From NCBI GenBank assembly GCA_009691145.1, contig SHVG01000002.1, positions 1 to 61,775 on the forward strand: a DNA stretch of 61,775 nt, in the 5' to 3' direction. Below the pieces are notes generated by a model. The model saw only the letters and a program-made list of their open reading frames with translations. It made no database searches and had not been told where the DNA came from. The position numbers and the translations under genes were made by a program. This document shows, in pieces, positions 42,836 to 50,891 of this stretch; the first letter of the stretch is position 1, and every line of letters starts with the position of its first letter. The DNA comes from Candidatus Planktophila sp. GTDB taxonomy: Bacteria; Actinomycetota; Actinomycetes; Nanopelagicales; Nanopelagicaceae.

Positions 42836-44260
42836 ATGGAAAAGTTAACGAACTTCATAAATGGCAAGGCCGCAGAGAGCACCTCTGGCGAAACAACATC
42901 TCTCATTAATCCATCGACAGGTGCTGCGTATGCAACGGCGCCGAAATCAAATGCCGCCGATGTCGATGCTGCATTTAGCGCAGCAAGTAATGCATCTGCT
43001 GGTTGGCGCGATTCAACTCCATCACAGCGCCAACGCGCATTATTGAAAATCGCCGATGCAATTGAGGATCGCCAAGCACAAGTTATTGAGATTGAATGTC
43101 GCAATACTGGTAAGCCGATTTCATTAACAACCTCTGAAGAAGTTCCACCGATGGTCGATCAGATCCGCTTCTTTGCAGGAGCTGCCCGAAACCTCGAAGG
43201 CAAATCTGCCGGTGAATATATGCCGGGCATGACGTCGATGATTCGCCGCGAACCAATCGGTGTGATCGGGCAAGTTACTCCCTGGAACTATCCAATGATG
43301 ATGGCCGTTTGGAAATGGGCACCTGCAATTGCTGCGGGCAATACCGTTGTCTTAAAGCCAAGTGATACAACACCTGCATCAACTGTATGGATGGCAAAAG
43401 TTATGTCAGAGTTTTTACCGGCCGGTGTTTTCAACGTTGTATGTGGCGAGCGCGAAACAGGCCGCGCAGTTGTTGAACATAAGCGCCCCGACATGGTTTC
43501 AATTACAGGTTCAATTGCTGCCGGTATCCAAGTTGCCCAATCTGCAGCTACTCAGTTAAAGCGCGTTCATCTTGAGCTCGGTGGTAAAGCCCCCGTTGTC
43601 GTATTTGCCGATGCAGATTTGCCGTCCGCCGCTGAAGCTATAGCAGTTGCCGGTTATTTCAACGCCGGCCAAGACTGCACGGCAGCTACCCGCGTCATAG
43701 TCCAAGCGGCCGCCTACGATGATTTCGTAGCGCTTTTAACGGCGCAAGCAAAGGCCGTTGCCATTGGCGCACCCGATGAAGATGTATTCCTTGGCCCGGT
43801 CAATAACGCTAATCAATTAGCGCGCATTGCAGGCTTCTTAGAGCGCGTGCCATCTCATGCAACGGTGATGACGGGCGGGCGCGCCCTTGACCGTCCAGGC
43901 TTCTTCTTCCCGCCCACCGTTGTTGCAGATCTTCTCCAAGAGGATGAAATGATTCAAAGCGAAATCTTTGGTCCCGTAATTACCGTCCAAAAATTTAGCG
44001 ATGAGGCCGATGCCGTTACCAAGGCAAATGGCGTGGACTACGGCCTAGCCTCCAGCGTCTGGACTAAGGATCACGGCCGGGCGATGCGTATGGCCAAGGC
44101 CTTTGACTTCGGTTGCGTCTGGATTAATACTCATATCCCGATCGTTGCCGAAATGCCACATGGTGGCTTTAAACGCTCGGGCTATGGCAAGGATTTATCG
44201 GGCTATGGCTTTGAAGATTACACGCGAATAAAGCACGTCATGACTAATCTTGGGGCATAG
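42836..44260 (+). CDS. Aldehyde dehydrogenase, probable 4-aminobutyraldehyde dehydrogenase
   Basis: NAD(P)-dependent oxidation of an aldehyde to an acid. The 474-aa protein is a canonical ALDH: GQVTPWNYPMMMAVWKWAPA, the active-site Glu near residue 245 in HLELGGKAPVV, the nucleophile Cys near 280 in NAGQDCTAATRV and EIFGPVITV. The C-terminus EMPHGGFKRSGYGKDLSGYG is close to the PatD/aminobutyraldehyde dehydrogenase subgroup. Its place next to polyamine transport, amine oxidase and agmatinase genes supports oxidation of 4-aminobutanal to GABA. Betaine aldehyde or other substrates remain possible. Confidence 0.85.
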   Translation: MEKLTNFINGKAAESTSGETTSLINPSTGAAYATAPKSNAADVDAAFSAASNASAGWRDSTPSQRQRALLKIADAIEDRQAQVIEIECRNTGKPISLTTSEEVPPMVDQIRFFAGAARNLEGKSAGEYMPGMTSMIRREPIGVIGQVTPWNYPMMMAVWKWAPAIAAGNTVVLKPSDTTPASTVWMAKVMSEFLPAGVFNVVCGERETGRAVVEHKRPDMVSITGSIAAGIQVAQSAATQLKRVHLELGGKAPVVVFADADLPSAAEAIAVAGYFNAGQDCTAATRVIVQAAAYDDFVALLTAQAKAVAIGAPDEDVFLGPVNNANQLARIAGFLERVPSHATVMTGGRALDRPGFFFPPTVVADLLQEDEMIQSEIFGPVITVQKFSDEADAVTKANGVDYGLASSVWTKDHGRAMRMAKAFDFGCVWINTHIPIVAEMPHGGFKRSGYGKDLSGYGFEDYTRIKHVMTNLGA

Positions 44261-46631: not shown

Positions 46632-47491
46632 TGAGCATTACCGTGCCAAAGGTACGTGTTCCATACCTGTTGTTGTTTCCAGGTTTTGCATTTCTCTTTA
46701 CCTTCTTTATCCTACCCATTGTCAACTTAGCGCAAACCTCCACACAGAGTCCGATAGCTGGAGGAGATACAGGTCAGTACGAACAGAGATTTGCCTTTAG
46801 CAACTATGTCAACGCATTTTTAGAAAACCGCGAACAGTTTGCCCGCTCATTTGTCTATGCAACTCTAGCTACAGTATTTGCACTAGCGATTGCATATCCT
46901 CTGGCCTATGCCATTGCATTTAAATCTGGAAAGTTTAAAAATATTCTTCTCGTCTTAGTTGTTGCACCATTTTTTACCTCGTTTTTGCTGCGTACCATCG
47001 CCTGGAAACAGATCTTGGGCGAAGAAGGCTTTCTCGTTCCAACACTTCGAAACCTGCATTTGTTAGGGCAGCAGACCACAATTACATCGACTTCCATCGC
47101 CGTTGTCGCCGGTATGACCTATAACTTTTTACCCTTTATGACCCTGCCCTTGTATGCATCCCTTGAGCGCATTGATCCACGCACTATTGAGGCATCTGGT
47201 GATTTGTATGCAAATGGTCTAACGACTTTTCGCAGAGTTACTGTGCCGCTATCACTTCCTGGCGTCGTTGCAGGAACTTTGCTTACCTTTATCCCAGCAG
47301 CAGGTGACTATGTCAATGCTGCGATTCTCGGTAGCCCCAATACAAAGATGATCGGAAACGTCATCGAGTCGCGCTACTTTAAAATCGTTGATTATCCAAC
47401 GGCAGCTGCGCTCTCATTTACCTTAATGGCCGCGATTCTCATTCTTGTAACGCTCTATATCCGCAAGGCCGGAACAGAGGAGTTGGTATGA
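46631..47491 (+). CDS. potB: Spermidine/putrescine ABC transporter permease (PotB)
   Basis: Inner-membrane channel half. The 286-aa protein has six predicted helices beginning with LLLFPGFAFLFTFFILPIV near residue 13. The permease EAA-type loop EASGDLYANGLTTFRRVTVPLSLPG near residue 195 contacts PotA. PotB normally pairs with PotC, whose gene overlaps by four bases. It overlaps potA by one base, so the cassette is tightly coupled. Confidence 0.92.
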   Translation: MSITVPKVRVPYLLLFPGFAFLFTFFILPIVNLAQTSTQSPIAGGDTGQYEQRFAFSNYVNAFLENREQFARSFVYATLATVFALAIAYPLAYAIAFKSGKFKNILLVLVVAPFFTSFLLRTIAWKQILGEEGFLVPTLRNLHLLGQQTTITSTSIAVVAGMTYNFLPFMTLPLYASLERIDPRTIEASGDLYANGLTTFRRVTVPLSLPGVVAGTLLTFIPAAGDYVNAAILGSPNTKMIGNVIESRYFKIVDYPTAAALSFTLMAAILILVTLYIRKAGTEELV

Positions 47492-48324
47492 GCACAAAGA
47501 TTAAAGATGCCACCATTCCAACAATCCCATTTAAGGCACGTTTATCCCGCTGGTTTGGTCGCAACCTTCTGCGCATCTACATGATCTTTGGCTTCTCCTA
47601 CCTCTTTATCCCAGTTGCCTACACCTTCGCATTTTCATTTAATGACTCTGGAAAGAGTAACCTCATCTGGAAAGGTTTTACGCTAGATAATTGGCAGAAC
47701 CCGTGTGGCGCCCCACAGATCTGTAACGCCCTTGGAAACTCGATTAAAATCGGTTTACTGGCAACAACTTTTGCAACAATCCTTGGCACAATGATCGCCT
47801 TTGCAATTGGGCGATATCAATTCAAAGGCCGCTCAAGCTCTAACTTACTTATCTTTTTACCTATGGCAACACCAGAGATTGTTCTTGGTGCATCACTGCT
47901 CTCACTCTTTTTAGTTTTTAAAATTAATCCAGGTTTTTGGCCAACGGTTATCGCCCACGTCATGTTCTGTATCTCATTTGTTGTCGTGACCGTTAAGGCC
48001 CGTATCGCAAGTCTTGATCCACGACTAGAACAAGCTGCGATGGATTTGTATGCCAACGAGCTCGAAACTTTTCGCCGCGTAACCTTGCCATTAGTCGCCC
48101 CCGGAATCGCAGGGGCGGCGTTATTGGCCTTCTCACTCTCATTCGATGACTTTATTATTACTAACTTTAATTCTGGAACGTTGATTACTTTTCCGAAGTT
48201 CGTTTATGTGGCCGCTGCACGTGGTATCCCAGCACAGGCAAATGTCATCGGTTCTTCCATGTTTTTCTTGGCTTTAGCCATCGTTATAGCGGGCCAGTTA
48301 GTAAATCGTAAAAAAGCACGCTAA
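47488..48324 (+). CDS. potC: Spermidine/putrescine ABC transporter permease (PotC)
   Basis: Second channel half of the polyamine importer. The 278-aa protein has six helices and the EAA-like loop QAAMDLYANELETFRRVTLPLVAPG near residue 190, with SFDDFIITNFNSG, characteristic of PotC. ATG overlaps the potB stop. A 132-base structured region follows before the FAD oxidase gene. Confidence 0.92.
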   Translation: MSTKIKDATIPTIPFKARLSRWFGRNLLRIYMIFGFSYLFIPVAYTFAFSFNDSGKSNLIWKGFTLDNWQNPCGAPQICNALGNSIKIGLLATTFATILGTMIAFAIGRYQFKGRSSSNLLIFLPMATPEIVLGASLLSLFLVFKINPGFWPTVIAHVMFCISFVVVTVKARIASLDPRLEQAAMDLYANELETFRRVTLPLVAPGIAGAALLAFSLSFDDFIITNFNSGTLITFPKFVYVAAARGIPAQANVIGSSMFFLALAIVIAGQLVNRKKAR

Positions 48325-48337
48325 AGTGCGCTCATAG

Positions 48338-48456
48338 CCATAGCGAACTACAGGTTGTTAAAAGAAAGCCTGCGTTATGGGGTTAGGTTCCGGAGGACCC
48401 GGGCCGACTCATAGTTGTGATTGAAGGGGTGATTCCGGTTAAGGCCGGATAGCACG
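48338..48456 (+). promoter_or_regulatory. Structured 5' leader candidate upstream of the FAD amine oxidase
   Basis: The 132 bases between potC and the oxidase fold into consecutive hairpins. CCATAGCG pairs with CGTTATGG (8 bp, 48338-48345 with 48373-48380), and inside it CAGG pairs with CCTG across a 14-base loop and a 5-base bulge. GGTTC/GGACC forms a second stem (48386-48399). TCCGG/CCGGA (48434-48449) forms a third with TTAAGG in its loop, seven bases before the ATG, so the only AAGG-like ribosome binding site sits inside a hairpin loop. CTCATAG occurs twice (48331 and 48408). It does not match a riboswitch class I can recall. Confidence 0.4.
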
Positions 48457-49869
48457 ATGGCAACCATCGACCCTTCCATTCTCAAACATCTCTCCCATAT
48501 GCAGCCTGCGTTGTACTGGCTCGATGAAGATCCCCTTGAACCTCTGCCACATCCAACGTTGATCGGTGATGCCACGACTGATTTATGCATCGTGGGTGCC
48601 GGCTATACAGGTTTGTGGACTGCCCTCCTAGCTAAAGAGCAAGACCCAGATCGCGAAGTAATCGTGCTCGAACAACGTGAAACGGGTGCAGGTGCATCTG
48701 GGCGCAACGGTGGTTTCTGTAGCTACTCGCTGACCCACGGCTTCATGAATGGATACAGCCGCTTTAAAGATGAGATGGCGATTATCGAGCGCATGGGTCG
48801 CGAAAATCTAGATGGCATCGAAACCACAATTAAGAAGTACGGTATTGACTGCGACTTTGAGTGGAATGGCGAACTCCGTGTTGCCATCGAAGAGTGGCAG
48901 ATGGAGTCGATGGTTGAAGAGGCTCGTCTTCGCAACTCATTCGGTGACAACGTTGAGCTCTTAACATCTGTACAGACTCAAGCACGCGTTAAATCTGCGA
49001 TCTATAAAGGTGCGCTGTGGGATCCAGATGGCACTGCCTTAGTTGATCCAGCACGATTGGTGTGGGGACTTGAGCGGGCCTGTATAAAACTTGGTGTCAA
49101 GATATTTGAAAATACTCACGTTGAATGGTTAGAGTCCACCAACAGCGGCATGATTGTTCACACACCATACGGAAGCGTTTATGCACAGAAAGTTGCCTTA
49201 GCAACCAATGTATTTAAATCTCTTGTCAGAGGCACCCACAAATACGTCATCCCTGTTTATGATTTCCAACTCGTGACCGAGCCTTTAACACCCGAGCAAC
49301 TCGAAGCCATCGGCTGGAAAGAGCGCGAAGGTATATCGGATGCTGGAAACCAGTTCCATTATTATCGAATGACGAAAGATAATGAGATTTTATGGGGTGG
49401 TTACGATGCAATTTACAACTTCCGTGGCAAAGTACGCCAAGAGTACGAATCCGATGCCGAAACATACGCACATTTGGCCGAAGCATTTTTAGAGACTTTC
49501 CCGCAGCTAAAGGGTATTAAGTTCACCCATGGTTGGGGCGGGGCGATCGATACCTGTTCTCGGTTTTCTCCGTTTTGGGGAAAGGCATATCGAGGTCGAG
49601 TTGTCTACGTTATGGGCTACACCGGTTTAGGCGTTGGCTCTACGCGCTTTGGTGCACAAGTAATGCTCGATCTTTTAGATGGCGTGGACAATGAACGAAC
49701 TCGCCTTTCTATGGTTCGGAAAAAGCCGTGGCCTTTTCCACCTGAACCATTTCGCTTTATCTTTATTCGCCTTACTCAATGGTCAATTAATAAGGCCGAT
49801 GAAAAGCAGGGTAAGCGCAATTTATGGCTTCGACTCCTCGATTTATTGGGCTTGGGTTTCGATTCCTAA
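48457..49869 (+). CDS. FAD-dependent amine oxidoreductase (DAO family), probable putrescine or gamma-glutamylputrescine oxidase
   Basis: The 470-aa flavoprotein has the N-terminal dinucleotide fold DLCIVGAGYTGLWTALLAKEQ near residue 46, TGAGASGRNGGFCSYSL, the FAD-contacting VALATNVFKSL and the C-terminal VYVMGYTGLGVGSTRFG. The pattern is that of PuuB-like oxidases, which oxidise putrescine or its glutamyl conjugate to the aldehyde. No gamma-glutamylputrescine synthetase or hydrolase is in the window, so direct oxidation of a free amine is an open possibility. It lies in the polyamine cluster, with the structured leader upstream and the agmatinase gene 23 bases downstream. Confidence 0.82.
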   Translation: MATIDPSILKHLSHMQPALYWLDEDPLEPLPHPTLIGDATTDLCIVGAGYTGLWTALLAKEQDPDREVIVLEQRETGAGASGRNGGFCSYSLTHGFMNGYSRFKDEMAIIERMGRENLDGIETTIKKYGIDCDFEWNGELRVAIEEWQMESMVEEARLRNSFGDNVELLTSVQTQARVKSAIYKGALWDPDGTALVDPARLVWGLERACIKLGVKIFENTHVEWLESTNSGMIVHTPYGSVYAQKVALATNVFKSLVRGTHKYVIPVYDFQLVTEPLTPEQLEAIGWKEREGISDAGNQFHYYRMTKDNEILWGGYDAIYNFRGKVRQEYESDAETYAHLAEAFLETFPQLKGIKFTHGWGGAIDTCSRFSPFWGKAYRGRVVYVMGYTGLGVGSTRFGAQVMLDLLDGVDNERTRLSMVRKKPWPFPPEPFRFIFIRLTQWSINKADEKQGKRNLWLRLLDLLGLGFDS

Positions 49870-49892: not shown

Positions 49893-50891
49893 ATGACTAA
49901 CCACGGGAATATGTACGGCCCTGACTTTACTTTCCTAGGTATTGAGCGTTGCGATTTAGAAATCGCATCAACATATGCCGATGCTGATGTAGTCATTGTT
50001 GGTGCACCTATTGATAGTGGAACATCACATCGCTCGGGTGCAAAGTTTGGTCCACAAGCAATACGTGGTGGAGATTATCTTCCACACGATGGCCAGCGTC
50101 CGCACCTAGCTCTTCGTATCGATTCACTAAAAGCGATGAAAGTTGTTGATGCCGGAGATTTATTAATGCCTGGCGGAGATTTAATCGCATCTCTTGAAGT
50201 TTTGGCAGTTGCAACTGAAAGGATTTCACGTGCAGGTGCTATCCCAGTAATTCTTGGGGGAGACCACTCGATCGCATCTGCCGATGTCGCAGGAATCGCA
50301 CGTCACCGCGGCCTTGGCAAAATTTCGATGATTCACTTCGATGCCCACCCCGACACAGGTGAGGATCAATTTGGTGCATTAATCGGACACGGCACTCCCA
50401 TGCGCCGTTTAATTGAAACCGGCACCGTGCGTGGTGATCGCTTTTTACAACTTGGATTACGTGGCTACTGGCCAGATGCAAAGACGCTCGACTGGATGCG
50501 CGATAAAGGGATGCGCTCGTATGAGATGACTGAGATTCATCACCGGGGATTAAATACCGTCTTAGATGAGTCCTTTGCAACGTTGACCGATGGCTGCGAT
50601 GGAGTTTTCTTATCTGTTGATATCGATGTTGTAGATCCAGGAATGGCGCCAGGTACTGGCACACCAGAGCCAGGTGGAATGACCAGCCGCGAACTACTTG
50701 AATCTGTGCGCCGCATCTGTCTTGAGCTACCGGTTGTCGGAATCGATGTGGTTGAAGTTGCACCGGCATTTGATAGCGCCGATATCACTGCAATCCTTGC
50801 TAATCGGGTTGTATTAGAGGCGTTAAGTGCAATTGCTAAGCGTCGTTCGGGTGAGAAGTATTCACCAACACAAAACCTACTGGATCGCTAA
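49893..50891 (+). CDS. speB: Agmatinase/guanidino acid hydrolase (ureohydrolase family)
   Basis: Mn-dependent hydrolase that releases urea from a guanidino compound. The 332-aa protein carries all metal ligands: GGDHSIASAD near residue 123, IHFDAHPDTGED near 148 and LSVDIDVVDPGMAPGTGTPEPGG near 240. This pattern fits agmatinase or guanidinobutyrase rather than arginase. Beside polyamine transport and oxidation, agmatine to putrescine is the likeliest reaction, but guanidinobutyrate to GABA would also fit. dxr begins directly after the stop codon, so this gene drives into the isoprenoid block. Confidence 0.85.
   Translation: MTNHGNMYGPDFTFLGIERCDLEIASTYADADVVIVGAPIDSGTSHRSGAKFGPQAIRGGDYLPHDGQRPHLALRIDSLKAMKVVDAGDLLMPGGDLIASLEVLAVATERISRAGAIPVILGGDHSIASADVAGIARHRGLGKISMIHFDAHPDTGEDQFGALIGHGTPMRRLIETGTVRGDRFLQLGLRGYWPDAKTLDWMRDKGMRSYEMTEIHHRGLNTVLDESFATLTDGCDGVFLSVDIDVVDPGMAPGTGTPEPGGMTSRELLESVRRICLELPVVGIDVVEVAPAFDSADITAILANRVVLEALSAIAKRRSGEKYSPTQNLLDR

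Follow-up and report, generated by a model that had tools for sequence, protein, structure and literature searches.

Among the regulatory RNAs tied to polyamine metabolism, the spermidine riboswitch is a four-stem variant of SAM-I which turns biosynthetic genes off by terminating transcription (Salvail et al., PMC10853860), and the potE and odc1 motifs are candidate leaders of polyamine-related genes (PMC8632094). The yjdF motif is an orphan riboswitch candidate associated with one gene (PMC4793209). In the acI actinobacteria, which outnumber every other group in most lakes, the regulatory RNAs that we found described were vitamin riboswitches, and one earlier study of acI genomes limited its riboswitch search to the thiamine, FMN and cobalamin models (PMC5301498). 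Predictions of the nitrogen compounds used by these bacteria include polyamines (PMC5574706).

The leader described here lies in the genome of an acI actinobacterium (Nanopelagicaceae; 58 contigs totalling 1.08 Mb, completeness 79%), within a stretch of 61,775 nucleotides referred to below as the window. The gene order was aminobutyraldehyde dehydrogenase, the PotD-, PotA-, PotB- and PotC-like transporter genes, a FAD-dependent oxidase of the DAO family, an agmatinase-like ureohydrolase and dxr. The close matches to the oxidase included Candidatus Planktophila lacus, and the oxidase scored well under the cut-off of NCBIfam TIGR03329. The gap between potC and the oxidase was confirmed to be 132 nt. 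A regulatory RNA had been predicted in this gap at positions 48331-48456; the candidate stands, with the functional element now placed at about 48334-48456 (Table 1).

Table 1. Positions of the leader parts and flanking genes in the window
Feature	Position	Strand	Remarks
PotC-like permease, 5' neighbour in the window's genus	47488..48324	+	potC stop codon 48322-48324
Candidate -10 promoter box TAAAGT, which overlaps the stop codon of potC	48322..48327	+	predicted transcript start ~48334
P1a 5' strand, partner 48373-48380	48338..48345	+	double-sided changes at 6/8 pairs, 83 distinct sequences
P1 bulge AACTA (AA conserved, middle variable, A conserved)	48346..48350	+	alignments A1-A3
P1b 5' strand, partner 48367-48372	48351..48356	+	double-sided changes at 6/6 pairs
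3' strands of P1b and P1a	48367..48380	+	covariation in 83 distinct sequences
Linker and P2a 5' side (GUUAGG, partner 48404-48408), bulged UU/ACU	48381..48389	+	clade-dependent P2a type
P2b core UCCGG-AGGAC-CCGGG	48389..48403	+	diverged members on average 99.7% identical
Putative anti-SD strand CCGGAGGACCC, partner in the alternative fold 48427-48438	48390..48400	+	duplex energy vs shuffles
Shine-Dalgarno (SD) stretch AAGGGGUGAU	48424..48433	+	94% mean identity
P3, hairpin between SD and AUG, UCCGGU-UAAG-GCCGGA	48434..48449	+	inner CCGG/CCGG in 82/83
FAD-dependent oxidoreductase (DAO family), regulated gene	48457..49869	+	Pfam DAO 2e-58; ATG at 48457
Agmatinase/guanidinobutyrase-like ureohydrolase, 3' neighbour in the window	49893..50891	+	

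The original prediction described three hairpins, and the fold obtained here is close to that description, with P1 of 8 + 6 bp carrying a GAA-type bulge, P2 of 4 to 5 bp plus an outer part, and P3 of 5 to 6 bp. Folding energy was weak evidence that the leader is "highly structured" (z of -1.69 for the single sequence, 12 of 200 shuffles folding as well), but that claim was upheld by conservation and covariation, both of which were present when homologous leaders upstream of the oxidase were collected, a check proposed with the prediction. Homologous loci were gathered via the oxidase, and a covariance model was then built from 28 sequences. When 83 distinct members were aligned by fitting to the structure, 97% of cells were paired, double-sided changes occurred at 15 of 27 pairs, and the covariation score was 0.367 compared to 0.179 for shuffled and at most 0.106 for slid alignments; a MAFFT alignment (A2) led to the same conclusion. 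P1 was the source of most of this signal. The outer part of P2 (P2a) differed in type between clades (GUAGG/CCAAC, GUGG/CCAC, GUGGG/CCCAC or GGGC/GCCC), and the P2 core was 99.7% identical in pairs of members averaging 75% identity in the oxidase and 34% at fourfold-degenerate sites, meaning that the latter sites were randomised between the compared members. In P3, the inner CCGG/CCGG was kept in 82 of the 83 and the adjoining pair varied freely. The leader has a conserved fold with covariation together with invariant unpaired bases, one of the features expected of a riboswitch.

Two sequence details of the prediction fared less well. The AAGG in the loop of P3 (48441-48444) had been taken to be the only one, but a second copy at 48424-48427, 5' of P3, begins the conserved stretch AAGGGGUGAU, which we take to be complementary to the 16S 3' end (the anti-SD sequence); the loop copy was not conserved, and the P3 loops varied among relatives. 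The CTCATAG direct repeat (48331-48337 and 48408-48414) is present in the window but was not conserved in relatives. In members inspected by eye, folding of P3 would leave 5 to 8 nt between SD and AUG.

Of 81 members, 75 had a TANNNT box 8 to 18 nt ahead of P1, compared to 17% in shuffles, a count that is inflated by the overlap of the box with the potC stop codon where potC is upstream. Stand-alone units with enough upstream sequence, which are free of this bias, also had the box. Its position just 5' of P1 suggests that the leader RNA starts its own transcript, P1 being predicted to lie at about the first transcribed base. The leader is thus in the 5' UTR of the gene that it would control, with a predicted -10 box before P1 and the start codon right after P3. 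It had been noted beforehand that a promoter within the structure would mean that no leader is transcribed; the predicted promoter is instead upstream of the structure. Since no run of U was found 3' of P3, control of the oxidase is probably exerted at translation.

One strand of P2, CCGGAGGACCC, is complementary to the SD together with the 5' strand of P3 (GGGU-GA-UUCCGG). The duplex had a mean energy of -13.5 kcal/mol versus -6.7 kcal/mol for shuffles, of which about 1% reached the former value, and in 71 of the 83 members the SD-P3 stretch found its best pairing in the P2 strand. The frozen inner CCGG of P3 fits a sequence that serves two partners, and as CCGG is self-complementary it becomes part of the alternative pairing for free. 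By predicted energies, the alternative fold lies 1.2 kcal/mol above the other in the window, with a median of 3.8 kcal/mol, and is the better one in 8 members, so that the predicted OFF fold is less stable in most members. The alternative pairing is stable and general among members but is without covariation support, as is P2b, because both helices hardly vary. It is plausible that the pairing acts as a translational switch. In such a switch, transcription would start just 5' of P1, and P1 and P2 would form the sensing part. In the ON state, P2 and P3 would both be formed, and AAGGGGUGAU would be single-stranded and brought near the AUG by P3, while in the OFF state CCGGAGGACCC would leave P2 for the SD and the 5' strand of P3, so that P2 and P3 are disrupted and the SD is covered. 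Stabilisation of P1/P2 by a ligand would switch on the catabolic oxidase, whose substrate, an amine or polyamine-derived compound, is the likeliest candidate. We infer the operation of this switch in cells, its ON direction and the existence of any ligand.

At E ≤ 0.1, the model built from 28 sequences detected the leader in 134 of the 296 family genomes; a broader model, at E ≤ 4e-8, detected it in approximately 118 of the 296, covering 10 of 17 genera. It was essentially single copy; a few genomes had a second match, several of these at contig ends. One genome, G314, had two full copies on separate contigs (L157, which is on G314 C8, and G314 C18), and the pair may be a paralogue, a strain mixture or an assembly duplicate. 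The start of the oxidase was directly 3' of the leader in 82 of the 83 distinct members, and in members of the same genus the gap was mostly 132 to 137 nt with the same leader. Among 60 same-genus relatives plus the window's own genome, the full leader was present in 24 of the 31 genomes bearing the oxidase and in none of the 29 that lack the oxidase. The leader and the oxidase stood alone, away from polyamine genes, in several genera, with neighbours that were, from translations read by eye, a phosphate-binding protein and ABC-F, a cysteine-synthase-like protein, or ribosomal L13/S9. The unit is therefore the leader plus the oxidase, and any ligand is expected to be connected with the oxidase and not with the whole cluster.

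No convincing leader was found outside the family in the class and phylum samples, which gave four weak matches (E of 0.03 to 0.05); of these, G391 and G739 were inspected and look like chance, being inside coding sequence and having no leader layout, the other two being G095 and G071. The order-level search added no genomes to the 296 of the family search. The core pattern of the leader was not found in the viral contigs searched, and the weak hit of R3 to an acI chromosome was inside a coding region. In other Actinomycetes sampled, the oxidase was mostly close behind potC, with the leader little developed or absent. Comparison by eye with known riboswitches had earlier given no match, and the Rfam 15 scan likewise gave none reaching the gathering cut-off in any of the 4227 families, for the window and 24 other loci searched at gathering and permissive thresholds; no Rfam SAM family matched the leader up to E = 5. 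A hit to Flavo-1 (RF01705) of 22.2 bits (E of 0.016; gathering score 42) was judged to be chance, and Flavo-1 was not found in 16 other leader members. Conservation of length, covariation, invariant unpaired bases, the upstream promoter, strict linkage to the oxidase and the lack of an Rfam match together give strong support to the prediction of a cis-regulatory structured RNA, and we regard it as almost certain that this is a real class not listed in Rfam.

Divergent members indicate that the leader is modular. P1 and P2 were lost and SD-P3-AUG was kept in eight loci (L011, L014, L017, L019, L036, L042, L161 and L240), natural deletions which argue for separable sensor and initiation modules, and the whole leader was lost in L005, L009 and L049. 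That some close relatives manage without P1/P2 counts against the switch reading. In L059 the PotC frame is apparently continuous into the SD-P3 module, P1/P2 are deleted and one P3 pair is broken, as if the leader had relaxed after loss of the sensor. A further group of loci (L074-L107), mostly from Acidimicrobiia, had oxidase orthologues of about 70% identity, closer than those of the other Actinomycetes sampled, which suggests gene transfer. Their leader (alignment A4) was a different, covarying one of two hairpins with double changes at 13 of 19 pairs; it had an SD-hairpin-AUG module as in Nanopelagicaceae, with a different covarying hairpin in the place of P3. Eight genomes of this type that were searched each had one clear copy. 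This leader is without the complementarity between P2 and SD, which also counts against the switch reading; possibly the enzyme has in it a second switch, unrelated to the first.

If P1 and P2 only capped and protected the 5' end while P3 set the spacing between SD and AUG, with no sensing, the leader would be an unregulated translation or mRNA-stability element, as the persistence of SD-P3-AUG after loss of P1/P2 and the start of P1 at the predicted transcript start would both suggest. However, neither an invariant loop nor an invariant flank is required of a protective stem, and protection would hardly account for a P2 core that is 99.7% identical and complementary to the SD, so that we consider this explanation unlikely. 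The same invariant P2 loop, AGGAC, and its linker might instead be the site for an RNA-binding regulator governing access to the SD, either a protein, possibly the oxidase itself, or a trans-RNA, and the invariant hairpin, conserved loop and linkage to a single gene fit such a target as well. Yet the oxidase, a flavoenzyme of the DAO fold, is not known to bind RNA, the leader-oxidase unit is accompanied by no regulator gene, and a simple protein site would not require a stem as large as P1 with its conserved bulge; a regulator of this kind is again doubtful.

Attenuation through a translated upstream ORF (ATG-GGG-TTA..., from the 3' end of P1) is most improbable. The window does have such a frame of 15 codons, M-GLGSGGPGPTHSCD, but across members its length was 2 codons in 36, 12 to 17 in 34 and 5 in 2, with 11 having no start, and its start letters follow the pairing of P1. 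With no conserved upstream reading frame among members, this candidate was largely contradicted. We favour, with a probability of roughly 0.55, a lineage-specific Nanopelagicaceae RNA that would control translation of the adjacent oxidase, most likely as a metabolite riboswitch of the ON type.

The nature of the ligand is more speculative, and those put forward with the original prediction, namely a polyamine, agmatine or a product, are conjectural. The regulated oxidase probably burns amines. The dehydrogenase in the window (42836-44260) is of the aminobutyraldehyde dehydrogenase type (PRK13473, above cut-off), consistent with the oxidation of putrescine or agmatine to GABA. In L144, L148 and L151, from other genera, reading by eye placed an agmatinase-like gene 3' of the oxidase and a 4-aminobutyrate aminotransferase-like gene nearby, which supports a route towards GABA. 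With a single associated gene the inference of a ligand is weak, and its relation to amine or polyamine catabolism is offered tentatively. It is possible, though we would not presume it, that the leader responds to an amine destined for catabolism (polyamine, agmatine or related) by inducing the breakdown of that amine, by means of an SD hidden by the invariant P2 strand and a conserved hairpin bridging SD and AUG. If true, this would be a natural amine-sensing catabolic riboswitch class in the most abundant freshwater bacteria.

No description of the leader motif was found in the open-licence literature, and it is best read as a new class of orphan, riboswitch-like RNA that probably switches the oxidase on in response to the substrate of that enzyme. 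Being compact, not listed in Rfam, clearly linked to one gene and equipped with an alternative pairing that can be tested, this candidate switch opens a direct way to a new class of ligand and also to the substrate of an uncharacterised oxidase. Its likeness to the Flavo-1 RNA is a weak match over the SD-P3 part in the window. The potE and odc1 motifs belong to other taxa and genes, odc1 bearing a uORF and potE being without covariation (PMC8632094). The leader resembles the yjdF motif as a conserved leader with almost only one linked gene but differs in the gene and the taxon, which are unrelated. With the spermidine riboswitch it shares the character of a cis-regulatory RNA tied to polyamine metabolism; in contrast to it, however, the leader consists of P1, P2 and P3, precedes a catabolic oxidase and likely acts at another level of control, and membership of SAM-I was rejected, the four-stem aptamer being absent and the fold different. 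The candidate switch is like the translational riboswitches with SD sequestration in its proposed leader sensor and in a predicted alternative pairing that would hide the SD, but it has another sequence and fold, and a conserved hairpin between the SD and the AUG.
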